A DNA stretch of 64,000 bases from NCBI GenBank assembly GCA_030068145.1, contig JAPJBO010000078.1:248001-312000 (forward strand). The letters run 5' to 3'. Of this stretch, positions 5,803-62,959 are shown one piece after another (the first letter of the stretch is position 1; the number at the start of each line of letters is the position of its first letter). Position numbers and translations under genes: made by a program. Origin of the DNA: Diplonema papillatum (lineage: Eukaryota > Euglenozoa > Diplonemea > Diplonemida > Diplonemidae). The notes below the pieces were generated by a model. It had not been told where the DNA came from. It did not search any database and was given only the letters and a program-made list of their open reading frames with translations.

Positions 5803-5862
5803 TGTTTAGGAGCCCCACTCTCGACTTACTGCTTTGGAACTCCATCTGGCAATACTCTCGCT

Positions 5863-9290: not shown

Positions 9291-10012
9291 TAAAAAGGGG
9301 AGTGTACGGCTCCCAAAGTGGGGTATGAAACCTTGAGGGACTAGCCCCGAGTACTACTACTAAGGAGGGGGTGGCAGAGCAGAGTCGCAGAGCAACTATA
9401 TACGGGGATCTAAATCGGAGTTGCCAACCTCCTCGCGGTGGTCCCCGTCCACGTGCGCAAGCACGGCTAATGGCAACACGTGCACAGTGCGCGTTGAAGG
9501 CCTGTCAGCAGTCCCGAGGACGATAGTACGAATGCAACTCCCTTACTAAACTATCTCCGGAGGTCTCCTTCGGACCGTTACTCTTGGTGCGACAGAGCGG
9601 TTAACGCAAAAATCGATCGAGGGGAGCGAGGTCGGGACAAGGAAGAGGGAGGAATTGCCTGTGTTATTTTCCGATTCCGAATCCTTAAGTTTCCGAATCG
9701 TCGCCTTCCATCCTTTGCAAGTGGACTTCAAACACTCACGGCGTGTCGCCCAATACCTCTTGTCTCTCTTTAGATCCTCACTCGACGCCCCTAGACGCAC
9801 CGAAGGTGCTCAAACAAGTTTGCTAAAGGAGGGAGAGAGAGGGAGAGAACGCATCAAAACAAGTCGAAGGTTATCGTCTGAAGTCTTCTTTGAAGAAGAA
9901 AGCGGGGGTTGCCTTTAGAAAAACGCAGAAGTGGGAAAAGGGATTGTAAAGAGGGCATGAAACCTTGAGGGACAGGCCCTCGGGGGGAAGGGCAATTTTG
10001 AGCGCGGCACAC

Positions 10013-10927: not shown

Positions 10928-10939
10928 CTGGTTTTTTGG

Positions 10940-11824
10940 GGCGTTTTTTTTTTTTTCGAGACATTACAGGCTATGAGCTTCATTTTTCCTCAGTTTTCCA
11001 AATTCCGTCTCAATAGCCAATTTGCTTTTCCCGCTCTGAAATCGAAGCCTTTGTTTAGTTAGGCCACCCGAACCTTGCAAAGGGGGGTCCGGGGGGCACC
11101 GCCCCCCGGCAAACGGTACGGTACATTCAGGTCGAGAAAGAGTTTGTACTTCTCAGTCCGTTTGTCGCGTAAGACATACGACCAACGTACTGGTGGCACT
11201 GTTTGCCATCTGTGTGACCCTCGCCCCGCTCCCCCTGGTGCGAACTCCTGAAGCCACCAGCCCATTTCAAATTCATCCACCACTCAGATAGTTTGTGCTG
11301 GTAAATCATTGGCACGAGTAGATGCAGACCGGTGTCAACTCGGAGAGAATCTGTCAAGAATTCTGGGCTGCTTCTGAGCCTCGACTCCCACTCGGCTCAG
11401 CACCGGCGGCAGCCCCAAACTTCTGCCAGTCAGCCCACCATGCCCAGCGGCGACCCACCGATGGCCAGCCCCTGACCGCCAGCCAGCTTCCTGGCACAGC
11501 TGGCCTAACCCACGCCTCCACCGGACCCCCACGACCTTTTTCATCGAAGGTCGTTTTTTGCACCTTTTTTTATATTTTGTGAGCTGCCGGATTTCCAAAC
11601 TCCGTCAGCTGACGGAATTTGGAATGGGAAGCTAATGCCCTGAGACATTGCAATGTGTTCCAAAAATGTAAGCCTGAGCAATGAGCGAACCAACACCAAA
11701 CTGAAGATTCATGTCACTGTCACAGTTTACATGTCCGTGCTTCACATGGAGATCCCTAACTCAAGACATACCAGGTGAAAAAGAAGAAGAACAACCTGAA
11801 GAGAGGCCTGGAACTCGGCCTGCT

Positions 11825-15418: not shown

Positions 15419-18400
15419 ATGCATGACCACATCCTCCGACAGGTGAAGCCAAAAAGGATCGGGAAAACACACACCGGAATGCCAGCCACAAAGAAAAGAA
15501 GGACTGAAGAATCAGCATCTCAGTCCACGAGTCTTGCCTCCTTTTTTTCAATGCCTGAAGCTAAAATAGCATCATCTCACGGGCGCACTGAAAAGCCTGC
15601 CGACCCTGCATACCATGATGATTACAGTATGTGGAATACGTGGTCGAGCAGAATACCATCGGCGTGTCTGAAAACGGGCACCAAGACCGTCAACAACCTC
15701 AAGGATTTCCTTTCACTGCAAGGGACCTTGAGAGGCTTCCAGGCGCACCAGAACTGGCCCTTGGAAAAGAAGCGGTGGGTGTGGAAAAAGTTCGATGAGG
15801 ATTCCGAGCGGAAGAAACCTTGGATTAGACTTGTCAAGGAAGCCACTTCGGCCCATGACGTGCACTTGAAGGAGAAGAAGGAAGCACAAGAGCGGGTCAA
15901 AGCAGAAGCCGAATCGCGCGCAGCAAACCTTGTGCAGGAGGCTATCGACCGCGCCCGTGCAGACGCAAGCCAGGCTGTTCCGTTGGCGGAAGCTCTAGCA
16001 CGAGCCGAAGAACCACAAACCCAGCAAGGGGACGCACAACCGTTTGTTGTGATTCCGGATCAACAGCTGGTGCGGCTGCACCCCGACGACGCCAACCTGC
16101 ACGAAATGACACGTCTGGTCATGCAAGAGGTGGAACAGGAATAGAAAGAAGAACAGGCGTCGTTGTCCGCGGAAAGCGAACAAGAAAAGAAAACGGTCTT
16201 CGGGTATTCGACCGGTCGATGTATGCAGGCCCTCCTCCGTACCCAGCACTTCAAGACTTCGAAGTGGCAGCCTTCGTGGAGGAAAAGATTGCTGATGACG
16301 AGCCAGGGGCAACGAGCCTCCTCGACTTTCCCAGCCCCTTTGAGCGATCGCTGATTCCCCCGGACGTCGTGAATGGACCCAACAGCAAGACCCTGCAGGA
16401 ACTCCTTAAACTCCACTACTGGCTTCAGCCGACAACTGGAGGGCTCATCTGTCGAGCTTGCTTTGGTCGACGGACAAGCAAGCGGATCATCACGTTCGTG
16501 ACGCATCCTCTTGATTGGTCGAGGATGCGTGAACTCGGGAACAAGGTCAACTGCCATCTGCAGATTGGAAAGCAGCAGACGGCCCGGCACAGGCATTTCA
16601 CACGGCGTTCACGGAAGCTCTGTCGAAGCTCTATTGTTCCCCGTTCCCAACACCCAGAGGTGCGTCTCCCACCGAAGACGTAGCTGCCGGCATCTTGAAT
16701 ACGCAGCACTTGGTTCGGCTGTTTCAGGTGATGGCATCAACACTCGCTGCGGCAAAGCCACTCAGTGAGTCGTCCTTGCGACCTCCTCTCAACACTCGCT
16801 GCGGCAAAGCCACTCAGTGAGTCGTCCTTGTTCTGCGACCTCCTCTCAACACTCGCTGCGGCAAAGCCACTCAGTGAGTCGTCCTTGTTCTGCGACCTCC
16901 TCTCAACACTCGCTGCGGCAAAGCCACTCAGTGAGTCGTCCTTGTTCTGCGACCTGCTCTCAACACTCGCTGCGGCAAAGCCACTCAGTGAGTCGTCCTT
17001 GTTCTGCGACCTGCTCTCAACACTCGCTGCGGCAAAGCCACTCAGTGAGTCGTCCTTGTTCTGCGACCTCCTCTCAACACTCGCTGCGGCAAAGCCACTC
17101 AGTGAGTCGTCCTTGTTCTGCGACCTCCTCTCAACACTCGCTGCGGCAAAGCCACTCAGTGAGTCGTCCTTGTTCTGCGACCTCCTCTCAACACTCGCTG
17201 CGGCAAAGCCACTCAGTGAGTCGTCCTTGTTCTGCGACCTCCTCTCAACACTCGCTGCGGCAAAGCCACTCAGTGAGTCGTCCTTGTTCTGCGACCTGCT
17301 CTCAACACTCGCTGCGGCAAAGCCACTCAGTGAGTCGTCCTTGTTCTGCGACCTCCTCGCGACCCTAGAACACTCCACACGGGCATTTCTGCGACAAAGA
17401 TACAACTTGTCCTCATCCACAATCCGCACAGACATGCTCAATTCCCTATATTTCAGGTTGAAGGAACGTGTTGTGCGCAAATTGAAGGACTCGCAGTTTC
17501 TTTGTTTGCTGACCGACGAGGCACAGGATCCAGAAAGGTTGCCCATGTCAGCGTCGTTTTCAAACTGTTCCATCACGGAAAGCCTGAAGAAGTCTTCTGG
17601 GACCTCAGTCCCCTCACAGGTGCACACACAGGAGATCGCATCGCTCGTCTTGTGTGTTCGATGGTGGACCCCCTCAACTGCTGGAACCAGATGTGTGCCC
17701 TTTCTACAGATGGGGCTAGTTCCATGTCCGGTGACTACCTGGGAGCCAAAACCTTTTTCCAAAGGTATTGCTGCCCTTTTGCGATTTGGGTGTGGTGCCT
17801 TGCACACCAACTCAATTTGTGCTGCGTTGAGGCAGCCAAAGTCATTCCTGCAGTCAGTAACGGGTTCGGTGTTGTTCAGCGCGTGTTTGTCCTTTTCCGA
17901 GCCGGTCACAGCTCGGGTGGTCGGGCAGCTGTCTTCGATGAGTGCCAAAAGATGGTAGCCATCGCGGACAGCTTTTTTTTTTACCGTACTGACATTGCCC
18001 TTGTAGATGTGGGTGATACCCGCTGGGTGTCCCACGAAAGGGCTGCAAAAACAATCACAGCAGCCCTGAAAGTGTGTCTACTTGCTGTTGAGAAGCTGGC
18101 AAGCGAATCAAACACAGATGCAGCCGCGTTGAAACGCGACATGAGCCTCACCTCATGTTTTTCCTTGTTTCTGCTCGCTGCTGTTTGTCCCACTGTGTCA
18201 CGTTTCAGTCGGTTGCTTCAAAGAGCTGACCTGTGCTGGCTGGAATCATCGTCGTTCAAGCTCAATGCTATTGGTCAGCTTGAAAAACTTCGTGATGATC
18301 CTTCAACCAGTCAGGACTACTTTAACTGCGTCGTTGTTATCGCGGACAGCCGGACTCGACATGGTGGGGAGGTCTTCTGCCTTCTCGCGAACTTTTCAAT

Positions 18401-19396
18401 CAGTTCCATGTCAGCTTTGCAAAGCCGTACCTCGACAGTCTGATCACCTCGATCGAGCGCAGGGTGTGTTCGTTGGACGTTCTTGAAGCTTTGGGAGTTT
18501 ACGATCCGAGAACCGCCACCTTCAAAGAACTGTTCCGTGGCATTGATGTCTCGCAGGGAGTTCCTTCAGAGGTGGCTGAAAAGATAAAGGACAGCACGAA
18601 GCTCACCGAACTGAAAGATAAAATGAACCCACTGTTTGCCCACTTTGGCTCTGCGAAAGACAAGCTTGCATCCCCAGATGTCAACGCACATTCGCATACA
18701 AATGCAGAGTTCTTCCCTCCGGAAATGGAGAAAGCAATCCTTGAAGAGCTCCCGCGTGTGCTCGTCGAACTGGCTCGGATCAAGCCTGATTCAGCCTCTC
18801 CGACCTTTGCAGACTATGCTGTGAAGTTCGTGGAGCTCCACAGGCTAGGAAAGTTGTCGTCGCTGTATCCAGAGGCCGTGTTGCTTCTGCGTCTGGCACT
18901 GACACTCCCCCTTGGCACAGCAAGCGTCGAACGGAGCTTTTCAACTCTGCGCATTTTGAGGCACTACCTGAGGAATGGTACAAAACTTAGGACACTGAGG
19001 AAGCTGATGTTCATAGCTTGCAACCTCGAAAAGGGTGGGATTGACGACGACCTCATGGCCAAGTTGGTTCATGATTTCTGCGTTGGTACTGTTAGCCCAG
19101 ACCCGACAATGCCCCCTGCCCCCAATCCCGAGAACGAAGGAAGCCGGCATGATGATGTTTTGGATGAAGAAGAGGAAAGCGAAGAAAGTGAAACAGAAAA
19201 CCTCGCGACACTACGTGATTGCGATGATCAGTTGTTTACTGAATCCAAACGGAAGTTGCTTTTTGCGCACTTCGATCTCTGGAAAGAGGCACGGAACACA
19301 GTCCAGAACTGGCACAGTGCTTATCGCAAAAATAGAAAAGTGTTTTTCACACCAGCACGGGCCCAAGCGGCGCTCAGCGGAGATGCAGTGGAGTAA
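15419..19396 (+). pseudogene. Decayed hAT-family transposase gene
   Basis: Pieces of one transposase lie in order on the plus strand. 15419-16144 is a basic, coiled-coil-like N-terminal region (MPATKKRRTEES). 16219-16683 has a zinc-finger-like CRAC...HLQIGKQQTARH pattern. 17349-17540 leads to the first catalytic-type aspartate (CLLTDEAQD). 17535-18390 holds STDGASSMSGD, a CLAHQLNLC motif and DTRWVSH. 18385-19396 ends with the hAT dimerisation motif SVERSFSTLR (18922-18951). The frame changes near 16600, 17540 and 18385, and a TAG stop lies at 16144. The gene encodes a DNA cut-and-paste transposase, here not functional as a single frame. An alternative reading with introns at these points is less likely because no good splice sites were seen. 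Confidence 0.82.
16737..17352 (+). repeat. 57-bp minisatellite inside the hAT gene, in frame
   Basis: About ten and a half copies of a 57-bp unit, exactly 19 codons, reading DLLSTLAAAKPLSESSLFC. The copies differ mainly at one cctc/gctc site. Because the unit is a multiple of three, expansion kept the frame open; the antisense strand is open as well. Confidence 0.92.
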
Positions 19397-19891
19397 AGTT
19401 GGCCCAGACCCCTCCACGACACCTATATTTGCTTCCCGACTGCGACCTTTCATCAGTCTTGTTTTGCCTTTGTGAAGTGCCCTCGCCCGCCATGAATGCC
19501 ATAAATACTGCCCTCACACACCGTTCCTGCCATCTTGGATAGGCACGCCTCACGCTCGCACCACCCGAAACCGAAACGACCCATGTCCCCAAGAGCTGTG
19601 CCTCCCAGTGCCCGAATACAAAGCCTTCAGGCCAAAAAGCGTCCAGATGCGCAAAACACCCGTTTTTGGCCAAAATCACGTCTCTGTATTATGCACTGCC
19701 TCCAGTCTCGAAAAAAAAAAAAAAAAAGAATAGCGAAGGGCAGTCTAACTAGAGAGTCTTCGGGCCGCGCATGCAACGCGCTTGAGATTCCGGGGGGTTA
19801 GGGTCTGCGTGGGAGGAGGGTGATCCCGCGCACATCACAGGAATGATCCACGCGTGTCGATCCCAAATCCCAACCCCTCTGAACTGTTTTT

Positions 19892-20144
19892 CTAGCGTTA
19901 TTTGTGGATTTGAAGGTCGGTATTTTAAAGTCCCCGGTTGACCGTAGAGGCTTGGGTATGGGAGGGGGTTGAGAAAAGTGAGAGGGTGCCGCTCGTATCG
20001 GGTGATGTGTCGTTCCGTTGTGAACCCTTGCGGAGTCCCCTAACGCGTTTAGGGGATGTTTGGGATTGGGTAGGATGTGGTCGTTCTGCTGCGGCGTGAA
20101 AAGCCAGGAAGTTTCGACGCTAATCTTCGACTCTTGATCATGTT
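19892..20144 (-). repeat. Truncated, diverged PLE pLTR copy
   Basis: About 253 bp similar to the left part of the 441-bp pLTR from the word ctagcgttatttgtgg to cttcgactcttgat, with scattered substitutions. It ends close to the ribozyme-like motif and has no body of the element next to it. Likely a 5'-truncated or solo relic. Confidence 0.75.
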
Positions 20145-25689: not shown

Positions 25690-26272
25690 CGCAGTCACAA
25701 TCAGGGCGAGTGCCCTGAGTTTTTTAACTGATTGCTCAGACACGGTTGTAGGGGCCTTCTCCCTGTGACGGATTCGCCTGTGCTCTAGTAGCACGGGTGG
25801 TCCTGGCTGTGACGAGCTACGAACAGCCGCTTGACAAACCAGACTCACACCGCAGTCCTGTCTGCACACACTCAGGTTCCGCGCTGACGGGATGGTCGGA
25901 AACACAAAAAAGCAGTCTACAAACAGCACCACGGTTTTGTGTGTCAGTCGCGATTGTCGAGGGTCGAGCTCAAATTCTGTGTTCCTTCGTTCCTTGTTGG
26001 AGTATGCAAATACTGCTGGGGAATCGTTTGAGACTACGCACCACCCCACCAACCGAAAATAGGAGAGAACCGAGACGGCCTCAGTCCCTTATGGGGTTCA
26101 TTTCTTTCTAAAGGAGTCTGACACTTCTGTTTTTTTTTTTTTTTCTTCTTCTGAGACTTCTCTATTCCATTTCTTCGAAAAAAGACGGGACGCTTGCATC
26201 AAATATGCATGCGGCAGTGTTTTGCCTAAAACAAGTCCCTCCCCTATTTTTCCTACTTCTCCTCTCCTTTTT
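25690..26272. other. Spacer between the ACTAGT element and the PLE
   Basis: Apart from the inverted repeat copy at 25804-25899, only T-rich and unremarkable sequence is seen. Confidence 0.6.
25804..25899 (-). repeat. Dispersed repeat, inverted partial copy 4 of the 21405 family
   Basis: Reverse complement of the last half: ggctgtgacgagctacgaac, agactcacaccgcagtcctg and ctcaggttccgcgctgac. Confidence 0.75.
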
Positions 26273-26713
26273 TAGCGTTATTTGTGGATTAGAAGGTCGG
26301 TATTTTAAAGTCTCCGGTTGACCGTAGAGGCTTGGGTATGGCGGGGGGTTGAGAAAAGTAAAAGAGTGCGACTCGTTTCGGGTGTTGTGTCACTCCGTTG
26401 TGAAACCTTGTGAAGTCCCCTAACGCGTTTAGAGGGTGCTTGGGTTTGGGTAGGGTGTGGTCGTTCTGCTGCGGCGTGAAAAGCCAGGAAGTTTCGACGC
26501 TAATCTTCGACTCTTGATTAAGTTCACCGGGTTGCGTGCTCGTCAGGAAGATCCCGGTGCCTGGCTTTTCTTCTGGGTGGTTTCGTGTTGATCGGCGGCT
26601 GTGTGTTACGAGGCACGGATTAGGGGATGAAAAAAGGAAAAAGAAATGGGGGAGAAAAAGAAGGGGGGGAGAGGGGGAGAGGGGAAGTTGGGGTTTTGAG
26701 GGTTGTCCTCGGG
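26273..26713 (-). repeat. PLE pLTR, 3' copy (in element orientation)
   Basis: A 441-bp direct repeat, identical by eye to 35217-35657. It begins at the word tagcgttatttgtgg and ends at gttgtcctcggg. Diverged copies of its element-3' half occur at 19892-20144 and 37432-37706. It holds the structured stretch at 26478-26570. Confidence 0.88.
26478..26570 (-). ncRNA. Hammerhead-like structured motif in the 3' pLTR
   Basis: On the minus strand an 11-bp stem (26560-26570 with 26478-26488) encloses a 7-bp stem CACCGGG/CCCGGTG, the hammerhead core word CTGACGAG (26539-26546), a GTC followed by GAAGAT that can pair with ATCTTC just before the core word, and CGAAAC (26491-26496). PLE pLTRs are known to carry hammerhead ribozymes. 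Here the order of the core words does not give a textbook type I or III fold, and some pairings are alternatives or pseudoknots. The structure is seen; self-cleavage is inference. Confidence 0.4.
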
Positions 26714-26944
26714 GTACGGGGGGGGGTGGTTGGAGGGTTTGAGTGACAGAGGTTACGCTTGCGCTGTTCGCATGAAGGCTCGTTGGCTCGAAGAAGTGGA
26801 AGTAGCGTTGGTTATTGTTCGATGTTATTCTTACAGTCGTAAGATGTGATAAAAAAATTTATTTTAAAAAAACCTCATTTGACTGTTTGTTGTCCTCCAC
26901 AGTCGGGGTTCTCTAGCTGCACGAGGCAGCCGTGGATGATGAAA
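26714..26944 (-). other. PLE 3' untranslated region
   Basis: 231 bp between the stop codon of the polyprotein and the 3' pLTR, with an A/T-rich stretch near 26850-26875. No reading frame and no clear polyadenylation tract seen on the minus strand. Confidence 0.6.
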
Positions 26945-29900
26945 TTAAGTTCCTCGCTTACTTTGCTTATTCTTTTTCGTAGCCTTGAGCGTGTGCGATA
27001 CCGCTGGGTTTCTCTTGCATTTTGAGATATGGTGGCGTAGACTTTTGAAGCGCGCTTTCCCTGCGGTCCGTCCGTCGTTGTTGCAGTATGGGCATTTGCG
27101 TTTTCCGAGGGCTTTCTGTGCCGCCTTTCGTACTGGGCTTGTTGCTAGAGTCATCTCTTTGCAGTGAAGCATGTGTGTACGGAGGCCTTTGGCGCCTTTG
27201 AACTTGTTGCCTGCGTCCGTGGTAGTTGCTTTGCAGGCTGGGCATGCCCAAATCAGCGTTCCTTCATGCTGTGTTGTTTCTTCGGATGAGGTCTCGTCGT
27301 CTGAGGTAGGGGTGTCCCCTCGCAATTCTTCGAGCAGTTCGAGTGTTTGTGTAGGGTCTGTGTCGGTGGTGTCTTCTTTCGTGTACAGGAACATGTACGT
27401 GGCGTTGTCTGTGTACGTAGGTTCCCGGGAGTGTGAGGTGGTTTCGTTGTTGTAATGTGTCCAGTTTTGGTCTGTGAAAGGGGTGCGGTTACGTTTGTGG
27501 ATGGTGTAGTGGCCGGCGTTCTCTCTTCCTGTGTGTGTTATAACGGCTTGGAGTTCGTATTTGTGTTCGTGGTCCGGAATGTTGAGGGTGGGATCAGCTG
27601 CCACCGGGGTTCGATTTTCGTTTGCGAACTCGTTCCGTCTAAGACACAGTAGTAATGTGTCTTGTGCTGCTCGGATACTGGTTTGCGTTTCTGCTGTCTT
27701 TGTCTTTTTGCACTTGTCACATCTGTAATCTTTGGGGGTGCTTTTCTTGCAGAAACTGTCCAGACATCCTTGAGCGGTGCTGGCCTGTATTGCGAGGATT
27801 GTCATGCTGTAGGGTTGATCTTCTGTTTTGATGTAGCCGCAGTTGTTGCAATGGATTGTTGTCGTCTGTAGGTGTAATAATTCGTTGAAGGCGTCGCTGC
27901 AGTTTGGTTGGCACGTGCGGTGTTCTTCGTTTTCGTTCGCTATCGCAGCGAGTAGTTGAAGTAAGGCTTCTTCTAGGTCGTGTTGTTCTCCGTCGCCGAG
28001 GTGTGTGCCCATGTGCTCGAAGAGCCTTTGGACGACGTTTTGGGTTTTCCTGCCGCTTATCCATTCGTTCACGTCTTGTGTGCATGGGCCTGTTTGGTGT
28101 TGTGGACAGTCGTTGTACTTGCGTATTTGATTTGACAAGTGTGTCGCTGCTATGAGGTTTAGCGACGCTTGCAGGAAGCAAGAGTTTCTTGTCGTGTATT
28201 TGTGAAGTTGCTGTGGGTGTTTCCGCTTCGTTTTGGCTGCTACTGCTGCGGCGATGGTGATGGTTGCAACGAGGCTGGCTACTCGTTCCGTGACGGTTAA
28301 TTCGGGTGTGGGTTGTGATGGAGAGTCAACGGAGGATGGTGATTCGCTCGGTAAGTGGGCCGGGAAGAAGTTGGTTGGCCTGTGTTTGCCGGCGAACTCC
28401 GGTTCGTTGATGCGTGGTTGGCGTTTTTTGTGCCGGGCTACGCAGAATCCAAGGAACGGCTTGAGCTGGCTGTGGAGTCGTGGCAGGTTGCCGAATTCCT
28501 CTGTGAGCCATGCGTTCCAGGGTGCGTATAGTACCCGTGGGTTGTGACCTCTGTCGATCATGGCATATACGCTCCTCTGTATTTCTACACGCAGGTCTTG
28601 TAGGTGGTTCGTTTGTCGGATTGCTCGTATCAGCGAGCCCTTGAAAATCCCGCTCGCTTGCGCCTTGGGAGCCGTTGTTAAATGGTGGGTATAGCGGGTC
28701 CCGTAGTTTTTCGGTTGTATTGTGAGGCGGATGTGCGGTGCGTGGGGAGGATCCGGACGTTCGACGCGTATCCGGACTCCGAGAAATACTACGTCGTCGT
28801 GTGCTGTAGTTGTGTTTTTGTACCGCATGTTGTAAAGGTGCTGCGGTGGTGGTGTGGTCCCGAAGTTGAGGAAGTCGTCGATGAAGCGGTAGGTGTGTGC
28901 GTGTGCCTTCGCTTCTTCGATCTTTCCTTCATCTACGAGGCTGTCTACGTATGCTTTCTCGATCCGATAGCAGAAAAGGTTTGCTATATCCGAGCTAGCA
29001 TTACCGCCCATAGGTATGCCGTCGGTCTGCCTGAGTACTTGATCGCCTTGTGCTATGTAGCTGTTACCGATAATGATTGCAAGTAGTTCTTTGACTGCTT
29101 CTCTGGAGTATGCGCGCTTCGTGTCGTTCGTCTGCCGACTGAAGGTGAAGGTTTTCTTGCCTTTCTGTTTCGCTCCACGTGTTAGGTTAGGGTTGCCGTT
29201 CTGTTCTTCGAATTCGAAAGCTTCTTCGATCGCTTCGCATACTTCTTCCACTATCTTGTCCTGAGGTAGCCTTGTGTACATGTCCTCGAAGTCGTGTGTA
29301 GTTGGGATTTTGTATCGGAGGCGGGTGAGGTTCTGCTTTATGTGCAGGGTGATGTCGTCTGGTCCTTCTGTAAACCATACACGTTTGATTCCTGTACGGC
29401 GGAAGTTGAGTTCGTCTTTTCGTTTGAGGGCTTTCATCACGCTTTTCAATAGGCCTGATAGTTCGAGGTGGGCATTTGTGAGGGTTGCTTTGGGTGCCTC
29501 GCGTTTTGTGTTGCGGTGCTTTTTGTTTTTTTCTGCGGCGACACCGGCTATCCAACGGAAAGATGGTTCTGCTTTGTGTAATTTTATGGAGCCGTAGAGG
29601 TGTGGTAGTCCCTTGTGGAACGGTAGGTCGAGCTCTGCCATTATACGTTTGTGGTTGCTCTCTACTTCTGTTTTTGTGATCGTTTGTTTCTCGTATGTTT
29701 CGTTTGCGTCGAGTTGTTGTCGTAGCGCGTGTGTGTATTGGGCTTTGCAACAGTATCCAAAATCGTGCGTTGTTTTGTCTACTGGTAAGATGACCAGGTG
29801 TTGTTTAATGACAGCTAGTTCGGCTGTGGCCTTTGTATTCAATTTCTCGTCGTCTGAAGGTGGTAGAGCCGCCATTCTTCGTGATATTTCGGCTTTGAGC

Positions 29901-32900
29901 TCCGTTTCGAATGAGGTTGTGTCACTGCCTGCGGGGTAGTATGTCTGTACGTACTCCTCTATTGCCTCGTGTAGCGTTTCGGTCAGAGCGTGGTGGCTCT
30001 GGTAGCATCTGTACTTTCTGCCTCTGCTGACGATTTCCGAAAGCCCGTTTTCTTTCGTAATTGCTGAGAGGAAGCCTATGGCGTGGCCGTTGATCGTTTT
30101 TCCGGAGTTGTATCTGTGACATGCGCAGTGCTCTGGTTTAGGGAGTGGTATGTCAGGCAGTTCCTTGCTGATCTGTGTTACGTTTTGTAGCCTAAGATAG
30201 AGTGGGGGGTTCAGTCGGAAAGAGATTTTGGTGCGCTGTAGTATCTCTTCTTTTGGGCAAGCGCGTTTAATCGCCGGTTGTTGTAGGATGTCGTGTAAAC
30301 GTAGCGAGTTGATGTGTTCACTGCCGTGTGTGATTATGAGCCTTGCTGGTGCTCCGTCGTCTTTTATTACTTTGTTGAGTGTTATCTCCCCGAGTCGATC
30401 TTTTAGGCTTTTTTCGAGTGCTGTGACGGTAGGTGGCAAATTGGTGCGAGGTGCGTGTGCGATTAGCCAGTTAAGAAGCCGCTTGATCCGTGTGCGTCCC
30501 ATAAGGTCGAAGTTGTAGCCGGTGAGGTCTTTGTCGCTGAGGTTTACCAGGTGGTGTAGTTGGCTCCTGATTGAGAATGCTCGTGCTTCGGTAGTGAGGT
30601 TGATCCGCAGTTTTCCGTCTTCCAACCATGCCCACTTTTCGACTTTTGGTGCGTTTTTCGTTCGTTCGTGGCGTTGATTGGAACGTTTTCTGCTTTTCCT
30701 GGGGCGTGTAGTGGCGTTTCTGATATGTCGTTGGACGTTGTATGTGGGTTGGAAGTGTGAAATCCACCAGTTCTCTCTCGGAAGTGCCTGTCTCCGGAAT
30801 TCGTCGTTTGTGGCGTGCTCGTTGATTGGAACTTTCTCGAGCGGTATCGCGTAGAGGGGAAAGTCCCGTTTCAGAAGAGCTTTGGCGATGGGTGTGTTGT
30901 TGCGGCGTTGATACCAGTGGGATTTCAGACGATCCTCAGCGGTACCTTTGGTTTGCCCGACGTATTTGACGTTTCCGCGTTCGTCTATAAGGGCGTAGAC
31001 TACTCCTTGGTCGGAGTGTGCTGGTTTGTCGGTCTGCTGGTTCTTCCATCCCTTGTGTAGCTGCTTGTGTTGTTTGGTGAAGAACACGACCTGCGCTTCT
31101 CGTCGTTTGGTGTCATACGCGGCCCAGAACTGTTTCCCGTAATTGTATTTCGCTTTAGTGCGAAAGCATGTGAGGAACGGGTTTCGCTTAAATTCTGGAC
31201 GGTCTGCTTCTTTTGGGTCGATGGCGTTCTGTTTGAGCTTGTACTTCAAGTGTGTGTCGTTGAGGTGGGTGACTGGTCGGGGGTTCTCTTGTGTTGGTGT
31301 GCTGTGTTGTGTGGTCCGTACGTCTTGTGGTGGTTTGAATGTGAGGTTTTGGTGTAGTTTGTTCGGTTGTGATGTATAAGGTTGGTGTGAAGGGAGTACG
31401 AGTGTATTCAGCGTTGGTGGTGGATGTCGGAGACCGTATTGTGTGGGTGGGAGTAGGAATGCCGTAGTGGGTCGTGTGTTAGTTAGTTTCGGAGGTGTGT
31501 GGAGGGTTGGGGGAGGTATAGTTCGGAGTGTGATGGTCGGCACTGCTGGAGGGAGTGCGGATTGTTGTGGGTAGCGTCGATGAATGTCGGGTGTTGGGTA
31601 GTCGATGTGTGGTTGGTGTCGTGGCTTGTACGTTTCGTTGAGGATGGAGGTGGGACGTCTCATCGTGGCAGGGGTGGGAGACCCGTAGTACGGCATGTGT
31701 GGCCGTGGGATGTTTGGGATGCGTTCGGTGTATGAGACGTCGTGTTGGAAGTCGGCTGGGAAGTTACTACTTGTGGGGGTGGGCGCTACGTACGTTTCGT
31801 ATGTTTCAACGATGCCCGGTGCTGCGTGCTGCGCTGAGTGCGGGTGTGTGATTTCGAAGTTGGGAGTAAAAGGTCGTGGGGAGTAATTGTCTTGTGAGTT
31901 GAGCAGTGGGGGTTGATCTGTGCAAGGCGATATGCTGATGACCCTTTGACAGGCGTGCGGTACGTGCGGTTGTAGTTTATATGTTTTGTCGGTACCTGGA
32001 GTTAAATGCCGCGTCCTGCTGGGGGGTGTGGTTTTGTGGTTTGGGACGTAGGGGTGTGGGTGGTAAGTGTCGTAAGAGCTGTGGGATGAGGTCTGGTCTA
32101 AGTTGGGTGAAATGCTGGTGTCTTGTGCGTGGAAGGGTGGTAAGTACGGTCGCGGTTTGTAAGTTCTTTCGGAGTTCGTGAAAGAGTGTTGGTCCGAGTG
32201 GGCGTAGTTTGAAACATATGGTTGTGGGAAGTATGTGTCGCAGGAGCTTGTGGTTGAGGGTTGCTTCGTGTAGGGTGAGATGCGGATGGTTTCTGCGCTG
32301 CTAGTTGGTAGATATGGTTGTGGTTCGTATGCTCTGTCGGTGTTCGTAGACATGTGTCGGGCTGTGCGTGCGGGTGCAGTCTTGCGGTTTGGAAGATATG
32401 GTCGTGGGAGGTACGTGTCGCTGGAGTTGATGCTTGAACGTTGGACCGTGTCGGGTGAGATGCTGATGGCTTGTGCGCGGTTAGTTGGTAGTGGTTGTGG
32501 TTCGTATGTTCTGTCGGTGTTCGTTGACGATTGTCGGGTCGTGCGCACGGGTGTAGTCTCGTGGTTTGAAAGGTATGGCCGTGGGAGGTACGTGTCACTG
32601 GAGTTGGTGCTTGAACGTTTGTCCGTGTTGGGTGATATGCTGATGGCTTGTGTGCGGCTAGTTAGTAGGTATGGTTGTGGTTCGTATGTCCTGTCGGTGT
32701 TCGTAGACGAGTGTCGGGTCGTGTGCGCGGGAGAAGTCTCGTGGTTTGAAGAATATGGTCGTGGGAGGTACGTGTCGTTGGAGTTTATGCTTGAACGTCG
32801 GTTCGTGTTGGGTGAGATGTTAATGAGGCTAGGTGGTTGGTACGGTTGTGGTTCGTATGTTTCGTCGGTGCTCGTCGAGACGTGTGGCGTGACGAGAGCA

Positions 32901-33478
32901 GGTGTAGTTACGTATCTTGGTAGGTAAGGTTGTGAGTGGTATGTATCGTGGGTGTTGATGTAAGGTTGTGGTTCGTAAGTTTCGTCGGTGTCCAGGGTGG
33001 AGTCTGCTGATGGAGGTGTGTCGAAGTACAGTGAACGTAGTGCCTGTGCGTGGTTACTGGCGGGCGTGTTCGTTGTAGCGTATCGCTGGTTATGTGGTGC
33101 GGGAGCTGTGCGTCTTTTCGAGAACGAGCTTTTCGTATTGCTGCGGGTGCTCTTCGTAGGCGTAGGGCTAGTAGGCGCTGCCTCTGTGAGTCGTGCGGTT
33201 GGTGGTTCGCGCTGTTGGGTGCTCATGCGTTGGATAAGTGCTTCGTGGTATGTGGGTAGCGGCGAGTCGTCGTTGGTGCGTCGTGGTGAGCACGGAGTAG
33301 GTACGGTATGTGCCGCTTTTCGGTTTTCAGCATGGTTGTAGCGGGTGTTTATCCGTTCTGTTTCTTTGCGCTTGGACTTGTGCGCGCGTCGTGCTGTTCT
33401 AACTGTTGCGTGCGTTGCTGCGTCTGCGAGGATCTCCCGTACGTTTAGGAGGGTTGGAGTTATTTTGCGTTTTGACAA
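26945..33478 (-). CDS. PLE polyprotein: Tyr/Pro repeats, GIY-YIG nuclease, reverse transcriptase, USP protease, two zinc fingers
   Basis: 2177 residues. Residues 1-150 are basic. About 165-620 hold tandem repeats with the word TYEPQPY or TYLPRPY in units of roughly 58 residues. GIY-YIG domain about 825-915: VVY at Y828, YVG at Y839, catalytic-type R850 and E902. Reverse transcriptase about 1150-1650: KLHK motif, motif A DFEDMYT (D1396), motif B DGIPMGGNAS (G1487), motif C FIDD (D1534, D1535). USP-like deubiquitinase about 1760-2025: Cys box NSCFLQASLN (C1767), two CxxC pairs of the USP zinc finger, His box GRENAGHY (H1990), third residue N2010 in HYNNE. Zinc fingers begin at C2079 and C2129. 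RT and GIY-YIG should drive target-primed copying in the nucleus. Removal of ubiquitin by the USP domain is inferred from intact motifs. The frame opens at the first ATG of a long uninterrupted frame; an upstream exon is not excluded. Confidence 0.9.
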   Translation of the reverse strand: MSKRKITPTLLNVREILADAATHATVRTARRAHKSKRKETERINTRYNHAENRKAAHTVPTPCSPRRTNDDSPLPTYHEALIQRMSTQQREPPTARLTEAAPTSPTPTKSTRSNTKSSFSKRRTAPAPHNQRYATTNTPASNHAQALRSLYFDTPPSADSTLDTDETYEPQPYINTHDTYHSQPYLPRYVTTPALVTPHVSTSTDETYEPQPYQPPSLINISPNTNRRSSINSNDTYLPRPYSSNHETSPAHTTRHSSTNTDRTYEPQPYLLTSRTQAISISPNTDKRSSTNSSDTYLPRPYLSNHETTPVRTTRQSSTNTDRTYEPQPLPTNRAQAISISPDTVQRSSINSSDTYLPRPYLPNRKTAPARTARHMSTNTDRAYEPQPYLPTSSAETIRISPYTKQPSTTSSCDTYFPQPYVSNYAHSDQHSFTNSERTYKPRPYLPPFHAQDTSISPNLDQTSSHSSYDTYHPHPYVPNHKTTPPSRTRHLTPGTDKTYKLQPHVPHACQRVISISPCTDQPPLLNSQDNYSPRPFTPNFEITHPHSAQHAAPGIVETYETYVAPTPTSSNFPADFQHDVSYTERIPNIPRPHMPYYGSPTPATMRRPTSILNETYKPRHQPHIDYPTPDIHRRYPQQSALPPAVPTITLRTIPPPTLHTPPKLTNTRPTTAFLLPPTQYGLRHPPPTLNTLVLPSHQPYTSQPNKLHQNLTFKPPQDVRTTQHSTPTQENPRPVTHLNDTHLKYKLKQNAIDPKEADRPEFKRNPFLTCFRTKAKYNYGKQFWAAYDTKRREAQVVFFTKQHKQLHKGWKNQQTDKPAHSDQGVVYALIDERGNVKYVGQTKGTAEDRLKSHWYQRRNNTPIAKALLKRDFPLYAIPLEKVPINEHATNDEFRRQALPRENWWISHFQPTYNVQRHIRNATTRPRKSRKRSNQRHERTKNAPKVEKWAWLEDGKLRINLTTEARAFSIRSQLHHLVNLSDKDLTGYNFDLMGRTRIKRLLNWLIAHAPRTNLPPTVTALEKSLKDRLGEITLNKVIKDDGAPARLIITHGSEHINSLRLHDILQQPAIKRACPKEEILQRTKISFRLNPPLYLRLQNVTQISKELPDIPLPKPEHCACHRYNSGKTINGHAIGFLSAITKENGLSEIVSRGRKYRCYQSHHALTETLHEAIEEYVQTYYPAGSDTTSFETELKAEISRRMAALPPSDDEKLNTKATAELAVIKQHLVILPVDKTTHDFGYCCKAQYTHALRQQLDANETYEKQTITKTEVESNHKRIMAELDLPFHKGLPHLYGSIKLHKAEPSFRWIAGVAAEKNKKHRNTKREAPKATLTNAHLELSGLLKSVMKALKRKDELNFRRTGIKRVWFTEGPDDITLHIKQNLTRLRYKIPTTHDFEDMYTRLPQDKIVEEVCEAIEEAFEFEEQNGNPNLTRGAKQKGKKTFTFSRQTNDTKRAYSREAVKELLAIIIGNSYIAQGDQVLRQTDGIPMGGNASSDIANLFCYRIEKAYVDSLVDEGKIEEAKAHAHTYRFIDDFLNFGTTPPPQHLYNMRYKNTTTAHDDVVFLGVRIRVERPDPPHAPHIRLTIQPKNYGTRYTHHLTTAPKAQASGIFKGSLIRAIRQTNHLQDLRVEIQRSVYAMIDRGHNPRVLYAPWNAWLTEEFGNLPRLHSQLKPFLGFCVARHKKRQPRINEPEFAGKHRPTNFFPAHLPSESPSSVDSPSQPTPELTVTERVASLVATITIAAAVAAKTKRKHPQQLHKYTTRNSCFLQASLNLIAATHLSNQIRKYNDCPQHQTGPCTQDVNEWISGRKTQNVVQRLFEHMGTHLGDGEQHDLEEALLQLLAAIANENEEHRTCQPNCSDAFNELLHLQTTTIHCNNCGYIKTEDQPYSMTILAIQASTAQGCLDSFCKKSTPKDYRCDKCKKTKTAETQTSIRAAQDTLLLCLRRNEFANENRTPVAADPTLNIPDHEHKYELQAVITHTGRENAGHYTIHKRNRTPFTDQNWTHYNNETTSHSREPTYTDNATYMFLYTKEDTTDTDPTQTLELLEELRGDTPTSDDETSSEETTQHEGTLIWACPACKATTTDAGNKFKGAKGLRTHMLHCKEMTLATSPVRKAAQKALGKRKCPYCNNDGRTAGKARFKSLRHHISKCKRNPAVSHTLKATKKNKQSKRGT

Positions 33479-35216
33479 CTGTTTACTTCTATTGGATTGA
33501 TTGGTGTTTTTAAAGGTACGCCGCGCACCGAGTGTTACTTTGTTGACTTTAGTGGTACAAGTACCGAGGTCCTGTCCCTAAATAGGGTGACGCCATACAG
33601 GTATTGGCTTTGGAGCAGCGTATGCTGTGGATGGCTTTTCTCTCCGAAAGATCGTTGATGGTTGTACCGGGCCATCCGGGAACCCCATCTTCGATCACCT
33701 AGTTTTCTATGCCCAAGGAGTCGGCGGTTCCTTGGCAGCGAGGAGGTCGTAGTTGTAACGCTACGAGGCGAGATGAACGGCTGTCCTGCGGTTTTAATGT
33801 TGCGCTTGGACCCTGACCCCGGGGTCACGTATGCATGCTACGTTCCCCTATTGTGGTCTAACGGACTTTTCGGACGGTGTGTGGGGTTGGGAGTTCAGGT
33901 CGCTGCGTGATGCGTTGTCTGCGGGCTTTCGCTGGATGTGGGGAGGTTGTACGTTCTGTGGTGTGCTGCGGTCTACTGCGTATAGTTAAGCTTTGTCGGT
34001 CACGCTGCTGTGGAGATTGGCTGTCTTCTTACTTAGGACGTAGGTCTTTGATAGCTGCTGTGTGTCGGAATATGTTGGCTGTTGTTAGAAGGCCTGTGTG
34101 AAAAGTGAACGTGGACCGTGTACTTCCTCGAGAGATGCGTGGTTGTAGGAGCTTGGACCCCTTTGAAGGCGGTGGAAATTACGGAAAGTGTGGCCTCGAC
34201 CATGACGGTCAGCCTTCTCCCACGGCGGCTCCTTCATCATATGACCGAGTTTGAAGGTGCGGGATATATAGATCGCTGGGTCCGTCATGCATAGCTGGTG
34301 CATCCCTATGCTTGTATTTTATTTTGGCTGTACCCTCAAATTCCGTGTTTCGACCGGGGGTTCGACCTGGGAGGAGTTTTATTGATTGTTGGTACACGGG
34401 GAGAGGATGTGAGGGCAGATGTTGTTTACATGACAAGGTGACGTGGTGAAAGGGAAGATGGGTGTTGCGGCGGCATTGTACAAGAGGTGTTTGGTACTGC
34501 TGGAGGTATGTATGCAGGTATTGAAGTGCAAGGGGTCCAGCAAGTGTGTAACTCCTCTGAAGATGCGCTGTGGAAACTGCCGATGGTTAGGTTGTGGCAT
34601 TAGTTGTGAGGTTTGCGGATTCGTTCTGGTTAACTTCGTAGATCTATCGACGGTAGAAGAAGGTGGTTTAACGTGGGCGGAAGCGTCTCCGTTGCGCTGC
34701 GTGGATTGTTGATCCGGTCGATAGGCGGGGTTGGTGTCGGAGTTTTTTTCTTTTTCCTTTTGGTGGAAGGCGACGGTCAAACGGTGGGCGTTGGGAAGGT
34801 TGTTCAACACTTCCGGGTTTCGCTGGTTTTGCCTTCGGGTCAGAGTAATGATTGTGGTTATGACTCGCTTGACCGTATATTGGGAGTGCTGCTGGCTAAG
34901 TATGCCTTTGTTTCCCTTGGGCGGACTAGCGTTGGCAGTGATACTTTGGAAAGAAAGGAGATTGGGGAAGAGAGACGGGGATAAGTTGGGTGTTTTTGGG
35001 TTCGTGCGTTTTGCGGCTGATGCCTGTTGCGATGGTGCACGAAAAACCTGGCCTTTTCGTATTGCGCTGTTTACGTTGTACTGTATCTACGTTGTGTGTA
35101 ATCGTTAAATAGAGAAGGCCTCGTTTAAGCACTATGAGTGTGGTACACGTCCACTCTCTTTGGCTTTACCGAATTCAGAGGTAGCACGCAAGAGCCACAG
35201 CATTCGGTGTTTTTTC
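33479..35216 (-). other. PLE 5' internal region between pLTR and main frame
   Basis: About 1.7 kb with the same T/G-rich plus-strand composition as the polyprotein region, so it belongs to the element. On the minus strand 34379-34810 holds a 143-codon open stretch rich in Thr, Pro, Asn and His, similar in composition to the N-terminal part of the polyprotein; it could be an upstream exon, an accessory frame or chance. No domain recognised. Confidence 0.5.
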
Positions 35217-35657
35217 TAGCGTTATTTGTGGATTAGAAGGTCGGTATTTTAAAGTCTCCGGTTGACCGTAGAGGCTTGGGTATGGCGGGGGGTTGAGAAA
35301 AGTAAAAGAGTGCGACTCGTTTCGGGTGTTGTGTCACTCCGTTGTGAAACCTTGTGAAGTCCCCTAACGCGTTTAGAGGGTGCTTGGGTTTGGGTAGGGT
35401 GTGGTCGTTCTGCTGCGGCGTGAAAAGCCAGGAAGTTTCGACGCTAATCTTCGACTCTTGATTAAGTTCACCGGGTTGCGTGCTCGTCAGGAAGATCCCG
35501 GTGCCTGGCTTTTCTTCTGGGTGGTTTCGTGTTGATCGGCGGCTGTGTGTTACGAGGCACGGATTAGGGGATGAAAAAAGGAAAAAGAAATGGGGGAGAA
35601 AAAGAAGGGGGGGAGAGGGGGAGAGGGGAAGTTGGGGTTTTGAGGGTTGTCCTCGGG
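35217..35657 (-). repeat. PLE pLTR, 5' copy (in element orientation)
   Basis: Identical by eye to 26273-26713 at a constant offset of 8944 bp. Because the gene is read on the minus strand, this copy lies upstream of it and would hold the promoter. Identity of the two copies argues for recent transposition or recent gene conversion. Confidence 0.88.
35422..35514 (-). ncRNA. Hammerhead-like structured motif in the 5' pLTR
   Basis: Same sequence and same stems as 26478-26570. In the 5' pLTR it would lie in the transcript leader, where known PLE ribozymes process the RNA. Confidence 0.4.
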
Positions 35658-37431
35658 TGTTCGAAAAAAAAAGGACTCCCCATTTGACGAAGGTCACGCG
35701 GGGACTTTCAACCCCCCGGAACCTCAACAGCCGGCTTTTGCTTTGAAAAGAGTCGATCTCCTCTGGCATTCAAAAAGCTGCGACCCGACTACATCCCGCG
35801 GTGCGCGTACAGCTGCGGGTGTGGCCGACCGAGACGGGTGGGTGTTTGAACGCGCGCTCCGTGCTTGCGTTTCGTGTTGTTCGGCAGTTTTATTCGCTGG
35901 TCATGTCTGGTCCCCCCGCACCCGCTTTTCTCACCGCCGCCCCCCCACCCCTGAACAGTAAACTAAGACTCTCCCAGCGGTCGCCTGGGGGCTTTTTGGG
36001 GCTGCACTCACGGTGGTTACGGTTGGATAATTTGACGATGGCCGACCGCCCGCACGAAGAAATGTGTAAAACGGTGGTTTGCCTCGAGGCTTTTCAGAGT
36101 AAGTTCGCTTGGGGGTTTAAAGTCTCCTGGTGACCTTCGTTAAGATGGGAAGATATCCTTCGTGCTCTGAGGGTTCTCAAGAGTGGTGGTCACACGAGGT
36201 AAGAGATCCGGTGGGTACCTTTGTTGTTGGTCATTGGTGGTTTCGGCCATTATCCACATACCCTACTTACGGTAGGCCCTCTTCAGTATGGTGCCTCAGT
36301 AGGTGACTTTCTTTCTTCTTGGCCTACGAGTTTAGAGAATCTGATACGAGAATACGACTCGCGCTGCATGCCTAGGGGGGCACGGGGTTAGCAAGGTTGC
36401 AAGTGATCTCCGTCGGGTGGGTGGTCCTTTGCCCGTCTGTCTTTTCCATATTTTCTACTCGCTTCCTTGCTTGTTGTTGAACGCAAGTCCTAAATTGTTT
36501 GTGCGGGGTCGACAAATTTGGTCGACGGGTTTGTTTGAACTCGTTCAATAGCAAGGCAATCAATACGGGGCATCGCCTCGGCTGCACGTAACTTGGAAGC
36601 CTGAGAGAAGATCTTTCAATGCGCCTCTGGTTCCCTAGTGTGCCATGAAATGCTTGCGGCTGACCCGTGGTTACCCTCAGAAGCCGCATCTCCCCTCTGC
36701 CCTCCTAGCTCTTGGGCAGGGCTGGCTAAAAACACCTAAAAACACCTGAGTTTGACCCCTCGTTGCCCTCTCAGCCCGTTTGTAAACGGAGAGAATTAGT
36801 TCCGAGGCAGTAGCATGGATCAAAACCCCCCCGACGGCACAGTCTGGATCCACTGGTGTCAACCCCCCCGGACGCCTGCTGTGTGCCTCTTTGGTACTAC
36901 TAGTGGTGGCGGCGATGTTTGGGGGTTTAGAGTTTTTCTGCAGTCACGGGGCACAACTCGCTTCGGGAGGCGTCGCAACCCACCTGGACACTATCGCCTT
37001 CTCCGATATTGAGGTAGGCGCTGCTTTTCGACTTATGGGTGCTCGCGGGACTTGGATCTGGTGTCGGCCCGCATCCACTCAGGCAGCCACCAAAGTGAGA
37101 GAGAGACGAGTTAGAGTACAGGGGCCATCTCCCCGGGGAGTATCCGGTCGCCCCGCTGCTACAAGTGATGTACGCACACCTACTTAAAACGGCTATGCAC
37201 AGGGGTGTGCTCAGTGTTGACACATGTCGCTTGGCGTGACGACCCAACATGGCCGCTACCCGTTTTGACTCCGCGAAATGTACGATTCGGGGTGCGGGTG
37301 GAGCAGTGGCGATCTTCCCGCGTCCTCGAACATTTGCGCGCTTGGAGAAGAAATGTGAAAACAGGTTTTGCCTGGAGGCTCTTCAAATTACTCTGCACAT
37401 ATGTATTGAGCTATATTCGTGTCCAGGTTTT
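35658..37431. other. No supported gene between the PLE and a solo pLTR relic
   Basis: The block agagagacgagttagagtac ... ggggagtatccggtcgcccc (37099-37165) recurs at 46640-46700, so at least one dispersed repeat is present. No protein family recognised. Confidence 0.55.
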
Positions 37432-37706
37432 CTAGCGTTCTTTGTGGATTAGATGGTCGGTATTTTAAAGTCTCCGGTTGACCATAGAGGCTTGGGTATG
37501 GAGGGGGTTGAGAAAAGTGAGAGGGTGCCGCTCGTTTCGGGTGATGTGTCACTCCGTTGTGAAACCTTGTGAAGTCCCCTAACGCGTTTAGGTGGTGTTT
37601 GGGATTGGGTAGGGTGTGGTCGTTCTGCTACGGCCAGGAAGTTTCGACGCTAATCTTCGACTCTTGATTATGTTCACCGGGTTGCGTGCTCGTCAGGAAG
37701 ATCCCG
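37432..37706 (-). repeat. Truncated, diverged PLE pLTR copy
   Basis: About 275 bp similar to the pLTR from ctagcg to gaagatcccg, with substitutions and a short deletion in one arm of the outer stem of the structured motif. It starts at the same end as the other copies and stops within the ribozyme-like region. Confidence 0.75.
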
Positions 37707-41313: not shown

Positions 41314-42834
41314 ATTTCAGGAAAAAAAAAAATTGCCACAAGACTTTCTGCTCATGCCCGGTGCTGGGTTGGTGCGCTGGGCAAGCAATATCGTGCTACT
41401 TTGACGTTGGTGTCAATCTAAACAGCAAGATTTGCGTAGCTTTAGCCAGCTCCTGCTGGACGCAGTCGAAGCACGCGGGATACAAGCACAGCCTCAGCCT
41501 CGAAAGTGTGCGCGGTTTTACCGACAAGGCATGTCGGGAGGTTTTGCCGCTGTGGTGCGCCTTCCGACGCCTGAAGCAGCTACTAGTATCCGAGACTCGA
41601 CTGAGGAGTCATTAAAAGGACGCGGGGCAAGCGATGCGTTCACGGTGCTTGCGACATAGTGCACTTGACCGGCGGCAATGCCTTGTGCCGCGGTATATTT
41701 GCGAAGAAAACGGCACTCGTCGCCTGACAGTCTAGACCGCACATCCCTGAGCATGACTGCCTTCGTTGCACACGGCGTCTTACCAATTGCCGTGTGCTAG
41801 AAGCACCTGCCCTCCGTGCGGATGTCGAGACATCACTGGTCTCTTTCGATGTGGGTGAGGTACATCTTGTGAGTCCGGCGCCGTTTGTTACGCATGAGAA
41901 GGTGGCCACTGGCTAAAGCTTGCTGACAGGAGGGTCGGCAGAGTACCGACAAACTCCGTTTACACCAAGCAGGGCATCTTTGTGTACTCGGGTAATATCG
42001 ACAAAGCCACTACACCCGAAACGACGGTGTCGGCGTCCGCCTTTGGGGGTTTCAACAGCAGACCGCCGCAGAAGCCGCGAGAGCAACCATCCTTGCACAA
42101 GGTGGAGGAAAGCAGAAGTTGCAGTTCACCATACTATCTGCTGGTAGCTGGCGCTTATTCTCGCCGATGGAAATGCCACCGACCAGCCGTCAGTAGGCTC
42201 TCGCACGGTGGTTCGGTACGACCGTGACATCGCAATGGGTCAAGAGATACAAGATTGACGGACACCCGCACAATCGACAGTCCTCTGGGTCACTGCTTTA
42301 TCGATCGCGGCGCACCCAGCGAACCGCGATCTCGAGTTCAAACCCGAGTGTTTTTTTCTCCTTCGCATTCGACTATGGAAGGTTTTGTCGAAACGCACCC
42401 CGCGCGACGTTCAGGACTATTGAACCCTAGACTACCACCGCAACCCCTCGGACACATCAAGTTTCATCATCACACTCATCTTTGAGCTCATCGTCCAGGA
42501 ATTCCACCAAGAACGGGCACAAAAGTGCCAACAGCGGACCGGCCAGTAGTATAGCCGGCACATATGGTGTAGTTGGCTTCAAAGTCAATACACACTGAGG
42601 TAAACAACGTCTACGCGATTTGCATCGCCGTGAACTATCGGTGTGATGAACAGGTTTCGACTTTTCCCTACGCCTGCAGTCGCTCTCACGACCGGTTCCA
42701 ATGCACAGATCCCAAAACTTTTTTTTTTTTGGCAAAAGTTTTTTTTCCCGGGGGTTTCCAAAAATTTACGCGCGCGCGGACATGGGCCAAAAAAGAAAAC
42801 CCCCCCGCCTACCCTAAAGGGATTTTGTAGTGTT

Positions 42835-42890
42835 TATTGTGGTTTAGAGGTTCGGTGTTTTAGGGTCTCCGGTTGACCATTGAGGCTGTG
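42835..42890. repeat. Short pLTR-like fragment
   Basis: The stretch from tttattgtggtttagagg to ggttgaccattgaggct resembles the first 60 bp of the pLTR. A related phrase (ttttagggtctccg) also occurs near 3493. Weak but repeated similarity. Confidence 0.4.
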
Positions 42891-43409
42891 AGGCGGGTGG
42901 TATGTGGGTAGTAGGTATGCTTAAATACGGCTAGCCATGTTTGTAAGTGTTGCGACCGACACCAAGAAGAAATTCGCTTTGAATTTAGTCTTGGGCCCCC
43001 CACGCGCATGCATGTTGAGCAGGGGTTGCCATGCAGCTCGTATCGGTCTGTAATATGCGTTCTTACTTCCTTTGGGTTGAGGAGGACTGGAGGAGGATTT
43101 GTGTGGGAGAGCTGTGGCAGCGGCTTGTGGAGCTGTGGCAGTGGTGGGTTGTGGGGACTGTGAGTGTTGTAGGTTCGGGGGTTCCAGTGTCGTGGGAGCG
43201 AGCCACGAGAACACAGACCAGACTCAGGCAGGCACAAGCATGATCTGACTGGCCCGCACCACGCTGCAAGTGACACGTGCAGTCGAAAAAAAAAAGTCGC
43301 CAACTCAATTTTTTTTTCACAATGGGTTTGGCCCTCAACTGGTGTTTGGAAATTAGCCCGCAGGTGCGTATTAAAAAATACTCGACGTAGCTGCGTTGAC
43401 TCCGAATGG

Positions 43410-62820: not shown

Positions 62821-62959
62821 AAGCTCATCACTCAGCGCAGGAAAAGAAAGCAACGGCGATGCTCCTAGTATCGGCGAGTGAACAGGGCAGAGCCCAAGCC
62901 TGAACCGGTGTTCTACGGATATCCGCAATGTGGCGCGAGCTGCTTGGGGACACAACTGG

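Follow-up and report, generated by a model that had tools for sequence, protein, structure and literature searches.

In the stretch of Diplonema papillatum DNA analysed here (64,000 nucleotides of contig JAPJBO010000078.1, positions 248,001 to 312,000; hereafter the window, with coordinates counted from its first letter), a single open reading frame (ORF) at 26945..33478 on the minus strand is likely to be the product of a recently inserted Penelope-like retroelement with an N-terminal GIY-YIG nuclease. Its reverse transcriptase (RT) polyprotein would have captured a ubiquitin-specific protease (USP) and zinc fingers at the C-terminus, and we infer that the protease removes ubiquitin in cis.

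The 2177-codon stop-free frame had been pointed out in a preliminary description of this DNA that left the strand unstated; it is present, on the minus strand, and stays open upstream to 33577. The frame itself starts at TTG and its first methionine is residue 85 (ATG at 33226), and 26945-33226 (-) is the likely coding sequence. When the element strand was simulated 300 times with an order-1 Markov model and read in three frames, the longest stop-free run had a median of 201 and a maximum of 362 codons; a frame of 2177 codons is therefore not a product of chance. Its predicted domains follow one another as a repeat-rich N-terminal region, GIY-YIG, a CxC linker, RT, USP and two zinc fingers. 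The N-terminal region contains an array of repeats of about 57-60 amino acids (171-180 nt) rich in proline, serine, threonine and tyrosine (31855..32960, minus strand). The coding strand of the element is strongly A+C-rich (A 0.33, C 0.34, G 0.18 and T 0.16 across 26000-36000), and the rest of the window is unlike it. The encoded protein (P0001) was compared with eight relatives from protein searches (P0002-P0009) and with four contigs (L001-L004) that came up when contigs of bacterial and archaeal genomes were scanned; scans of viral contigs yielded no relatives.

The USP domain spans residues 1763-2032 (27383..28192, minus strand). Pfam UCH (PF00443) matches it with an E-value of 9e-14 and 52.1 bits against a cut-off of 23.9, covering positions 6-254 of the 254 in the profile. 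The signature residues lie where the preliminary description had placed them, with C1767 in NSC, H1990 in GHY, N2010/N2011, and CxxC zinc pairs at 1877/1880 and 1920/1923; the window's copy has kept its Cys, His and N/D boxes as well as both zinc pairs. Asparagine occupies the third catalytic position, as it also does in USP2. A profile built from the USPs of the window, P0004 and P0005 was compared with sequences in the PDB and found USP36 best (1.4e-27), followed by USP12, USP46 and SAGA Ubp8; for the protein of the window by itself, USP15 is the best match. As a control, the window's USP finds those of P0005 and P0004 at 6e-10 and 5.9e-9, and the best of 10,000 shuffled versions reached 0.034. 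Behind the USP lie two predicted zinc fingers, the first at residues 2079-2106 (27161..27244, minus strand; CxxC...HxxxxC-like) and the second at residues 2129-2154 (27017..27094, minus strand). The C-terminus of P0004 carries one finger of the same sort, and a pattern search of P0005 gave no match.

The length of the ORF and its long repeat-rich N-terminal region would suit a maturation protease acting on the polyprotein of the element itself, a role that the preliminary description had listed among its options. We consider it quite improbable: no ubiquitin-like domain is among the Pfam matches, the ORF has no LxGG or RGG site, and USPs are, as a matter of general knowledge, specific for ubiquitin-like folds. 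Of that earlier reading, the single ORF that unites a Penelope-like element with a genuine USP is supported; the proposal of polyprotein processing finds no support.

The same arrangement recurs in relatives. Among the ten that were scanned with Pfam (P0002-P0007 and L001-L004; P0008 and P0009 were left out), UCH lies behind the RT in three. P0004, a D. papillatum protein like P0002 and P0003, contains GIY-YIG, RT, UCH (5e-23) and the C-terminal zinc finger, and its annotation reads putative ubiquitin carboxyl-terminal hydrolase 16. P0005, an ORF of an EukProt transcript that bears the label 'Rhum' and probably comes from the diplonemid Rhynchopus humris, contains RT and UCH (2.5e-21), and its Trinity transcript name suggests that the two are transcribed in one ORF. 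The third, L003:1-2640, combines a Penelope-type RT with a complete USP (UCH 5.6e-27) on a contig binned in a 'Gammaproteobacteria' metagenome-assembled genome, and is probably misbinned eukaryotic DNA; all four contigs look eukaryotic, although they were binned with bacteria. The chromerid or dinoflagellate hosts that had been put forward for a search did not turn up, the named relatives being diplonemid.

This recurrence bears on whether the USP is a mere passenger, arising through chance fusion with a host USP gene at a single copy or from two spliced genes. Transposable elements do transduce host sequence, and the USPs are only 21-27% identical between elements, with mutual scores (34-38 bits) close to those with USP15 and USP36 segments. 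However, the RT-USP order is shared by P0004, P0005 and L003, which makes a chance fusion untenable; no stop or frame break separates the domains of the window's ORF, and the Cys, His and N/D boxes are conserved in all four USP elements. The preliminary description had set its reading against two outcomes, an insignificant USP match or a pair of chance-fused, spliced genes, and neither was found. A passenger origin is thus already largely refuted, and we rate it as very improbable.

The remaining domains point to a Penelope-like element with an N-terminal nuclease. The catalytic residues cited in the preliminary description (Y828, Y839, R850 and E902 in the nuclease; D1396, D1534 and D1535 in the RT) all occur at the positions it gave. 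The GIY-YIG domain covers residues 825-914 (30737..31006, minus strand; Pfam PF01541, E 1.9e-5, 25.3 bits against a cut-off of 22.6), lies N-terminal to the RT and aligns with P0002, P0003 and P0004. A CxC motif (C1118-A-C1120, residues 1118-1120; 30119..30127, minus strand) stands between nuclease and RT and is also found in P0003, P0004, P0005, L001, L002 and L004; the P0002 model does not contain that stretch, and P0006-P0009 and L003 start downstream of it. The RT core, assigned by alignment and catalytic motifs to residues about 1225-1660 (28499..29806, minus strand), is 31-43% identical to those of the relatives. Cysteine pairs present in the nuclease of L001, L002 and L004 are absent from P0001 and P0004 in an alignment read by eye. 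A CxC motif between endonuclease and RT belongs to the definition of the clade of N-terminal endonuclease-bearing elements (Naiad and Chlamys), of which the Chlamys subgroup has a nuclease without the CCHH motif. An insertion-in-fingers domain of the RT is a further feature of that clade. By its domain order, its CxC motif and its absent CCHH motif, the window's element is probably an N-terminal-nuclease, Chlamys-like member of the Penelope-like elements, a placement made outside the trees described below, which hold no reference Penelope sequence.

The surroundings of the ORF bear the marks of a mobile element. Two direct repeats of 446 nt, of the kind known as pseudo-long terminal repeats (pseudo-LTRs), flank it on the minus strand. 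The 3' copy lies at 26268..26713 and the 5' copy at 35212..35657, the latter looking like what is left of an upstream tandem unit after truncation at its 5' end; their spacing is 8944 nt and they are identical at 445/446 nt. Three further repeat copies, at 37428..37706 and 19888..20144 (both 91% identical) and at 42823..42901 (78% identical), all on the minus strand, have the same orientation and 3' end as the element and differ in their 5' breakpoints. Truncated insertions of this kind, together with pseudo-LTRs derived from partial tandem copies, form the pattern described for Penelope-like elements in parts of two published accounts (PMC11167929, PMC9033089). The locus reads as a complete retroelement, and the single mismatch in 446 nt suggests that its insertion is recent. 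Target-site duplications were not claimed for the truncated copies: the 7-nt junction match at the 37428 copy (GGTTTTC) includes element letters, and the matches at the other two are just 5 and 4 nt.

The flanking repeats also speak to whether the locus could be a domesticated gene of the host that encodes RT and USP, in place of a mobile Penelope element. The annotation of P0004 as a D. papillatum host hydrolase would fit such a gene. Against this, the window holds near-identical flanking repeats and 5'-truncated copies, and the 90%-identity cluster of P0004 has 11 member sequences, though the table gives one contig. We therefore find domestication highly unlikely and favour a mobile Penelope-like element.

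The minus strand of the repeat contains a hammerhead-like CUGACGAG core with CACCGGG/CCCGGUG and AUCUUC/GAAGAU complements, and the stretch with the 5' repeat folds with a z-score of -3.05. Up to an E-value of 10, no Rfam ribozyme family (hammerhead and hepatitis delta virus-like ribozymes were considered) matched the stretch with the 3' copy. A self-cleaving RNA in the repeat is possible. The truncated copy at 37428 breaks off near CACCGGG.

Several other relatives help to delimit the family. L001, L002 and L004 carry an N-terminal GIY-YIG, CxC and RT and have no protease. In L004, a small ORF at 214-870 recurs at 5487-6050, downstream of the GIY-YIG/RT ORF, which suggests a two-ORF Penelope-like element in tandem. 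P0006, P0007 and P0009 are ENA proteins and P0008 is an EukProt protein; one protein profile search, which scored just the 8000 candidates sharing most words, gave only P0006-P0009, and P0004 and P0005 were not among its rows. At the C-terminus of P0008, NSCF and some 45 residues resemble the Cys box, with no further USP. P0006 and P0007 end in a different domain with the pattern ECGWA(A/S)LN ... H ... D, of which P0009 holds only a part. Pfam C39 matches it weakly (E 0.017 and 0.095), the best Longin match (E 9e-4) is below the cut-off, no PDB match was found for it, and a model of P0006, which also holds an RT, has a mean predicted local distance difference test (pLDDT) score of 33.0. This domain might be a papain-like cysteine protease. 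P0002 is annotated in D. papillatum as 'Kinesin-like protein 3', and the model contains a Penelope RT with GIY-YIG; the kinesin assignment is apparently an annotation artefact, with the element lying in an intron.

How often the USP was acquired was addressed with two RT trees of 12 and 9 rows, comprising the window's element and the relatives found here, with long branches. Both separate the diplonemid-type elements from L001-L004 with 100/100 support, and L003 groups with the protease-less L001 (98/93 in the 12-row tree, 80/80 in the 9-row tree). Given the starred branches, the USP label must have changed at least twice. In the 9-row tree, a single clade for the four USP elements was rejected (log likelihood 177.6 lower; approximately unbiased test, p-AU 2.8e-68), the group having been named after the trait had been seen. 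Among P0001, P0004 and P0005, RT identity is 33-35%. Scores among the diplonemid-type USPs are 34-38 bits, and those against USP15 and USP36 segments are 25-37, with the exception of P0004 against the USP15 segment (0.1-0.4); the L003 USP scores 26.7 bits with the USP15 segment, 23.0 with the P0004 USP and 10.9 with that of the window. Since the RT of L003 groups with protease-less relatives, at least two acquisitions are probably the simplest reading, which we prefer to one gain followed by repeated losses. If the USP was acquired repeatedly, that would speak for a role under selection. We lean slightly towards the wider proposal that N-terminal-nuclease Penelope elements repeatedly captured deubiquitinases, with a USP taken up at least twice and possibly a papain-like protease in P0006 and P0007, and that deubiquitination in cis contributes functionally to their retrotransposition, in diplonemids as in other hosts.

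A number of observations weigh against these readings. Seven of the ten scanned relatives (P0002, P0003, P0006, P0007, L001, L002 and L004) have no UCH, and on the two trees 251/500 and 326/500 shuffles of the USP label scored as low as the real one, which means no clustering beyond that of shuffled labels. P0002 and P0003, both without USP, adjoin the window's element (82/96 in the 9-row tree); the USP is therefore not essential to the clade, and within the diplonemid-type elements one has to assume that a USP was lost, that another was gained or that gene models are faulty. The ends of the P0002 and P0003 gene models may be wrong, which makes the absence of a USP there uncertain; both were counted as misses. 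Two relatives depart from the zinc pairs: P0005 is without one Cys of the first pair, and P0004 has CxC for the second; the pairs of L003 are intact. Three sequences went into an AlphaFold model of the USP, whose quality is poor (mean pLDDT 40.5, predicted template modelling score 0.43). In a Foldseek search with this model, 11/11 matches at E <=0.001 were USP-family entries (USP1, USPL1, Ubp8) with TM-scores of only 0.15-0.30, a ranking that is supportive of a USP fold, not proof of it. Among the profiles that the preliminary description had put forward, UCH and GIY-YIG reached significance and the Pfam RT profile RVT_1 remained below its cut-off (E 0.11; 12.7 bits against 29.6), so the RT assignment rests on the catalytic motifs and the alignment with relatives. 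When an RT-USP profile was compared with the PDB, all 57 sequences matched at E up to 1 were deubiquitinases and none was an RT, and an NCBIfam scan of P0001, P0004, P0005 and P0006 gave only weak matches to group II RTs, in P0005 and P0006. Finally, the full copy shows no clear target-site duplication, the only match being 6 nt long and off the junctions.

In the mechanism that we propose, the GIY-YIG nuclease would nick the target and the element RNA would be copied by target-primed reverse transcription. The covalently attached USP could then remove ubiquitin in cis from the element's own ribonucleoprotein (RNP) and prolong its life, and nucleic-acid binding is a possible role of the zinc fingers. 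The cis fusion, the intact active site and the recurrence argue that the element profits from ubiquitin removal; that the substrate is the element's own RNP has, in our estimate, an even chance. Alternatively, the USP might act in cis on host proteins met at the nicked target, such as chromatin or repair proteins (H2A/H2B, PCNA, FANCD2-like), and open chromatin or steer repair towards a completed insertion. The profile matches that follow USP36 (USP12, USP46 and SAGA Ubp8) are chromatin deubiquitinases and the zinc fingers sit behind the USP. A repair role has also been proposed for the OTU and Ulp1 domains of DNA transposons, as one portion of the source relates (PMC2836005). On the other side, subfamily ranking is weak among such divergent USPs, and the window's protein alone is closest to USP15. 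We regard action on target-bound host or chromatin proteins as possible, with the balance against it, and protection of the RNP as the preferred role; the remaining probability falls to other functions.

If correct, the finding extends the toolkit of a retroelement class, one related to telomerase, by an enzyme that edits ubiquitin. That distant relatives carry a USP as well suggests a ubiquitin-based policing of retroelement RNPs or of their insertion sites. Such policing can be put to the test, because D. papillatum, host of the P0004-type element, is described as genetically tractable in PMC12621601. Some annotated USP genes in such genomes may in fact be transposon proteins.

Elsewhere in the window, an open frame at 9857-10963 (minus strand) with UBA, SEP and UBX domains resembles a p47/NSFL1C-like host gene, and an ORF at 18326-19393 (plus strand) with a hAT dimerisation domain appears to be a DNA transposon remnant. 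Two eukaryotic 28S rRNA fragments, at 6928-7110 (minus strand) and 62816-63107 (plus strand), recall the scattered 28S pieces, about 3600 in number, that part of the D. papillatum genome paper reports (PMC10161547), and so fit a diplonemid genome. The main text of that paper contains neither 'Penelope' nor 'ubiquitin' (PMC10161547).

Among known systems, the nearest are the N-terminal endonuclease Penelope-like elements Naiad and Chlamys, reportedly described by Craig et al. 2021. Like them, the window's element has a GIY-YIG domain before the RT, a CxC linker, pseudo-LTRs and 5' truncation, and its 3'-repeat stretch has no match to a hammerhead family. Unlike them, it carries a C-terminal USP with zinc fingers and a long repeat-rich N-terminal region, and its nuclease differs from that of Naiad in having no CCHH Cys pairs. 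Protist hosts are known, Chlamys elements being listed in Ectocarpus in an excerpt of PMC12477816. Among the literature matches listed, none was recognised as describing a Penelope element with a USP, though Craig et al. 2021 could hold such a remark. The canonical Penelope/Poseidon element PAc of Anolis likewise combines RT and GIY-YIG with a pseudo-LTR and a partial tandem structure; unlike in the window's element, its nuclease follows the RT on the C-terminal side, a hammerhead ribozyme is present, and no protease is among the domains described in the relevant part of the source (PMC11167929).

With cellular USPs such as USP36, USP12/46, USP15 and Ubp8, the window's USP shares the Cys box, the QH/D-E box, two CxxC pairs, the His box and N/D; it differs from them in its low identity, in a Cys box reading RNSC in place of GNTC, and in being embedded in a retroelement polyprotein. 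The USP family is also known as peptidase C19. Joining a transposition enzyme to a ubiquitin or SUMO protease domain has parallels among DNA transposon transposases, from which the window's element differs in being a retroelement: according to part of one survey, Ginger1 DNA transposons carry OTU or Ulp1, and a Trichomonas vaginalis protein has the arrangement Transposase_11-Peptidase C19 (PMC2836005). The nearest precedents in print, as far as that part of the survey extends, are these Ginger1 transposases and the Trichomonas DNA transposase with a USP-family domain (PMC2836005).

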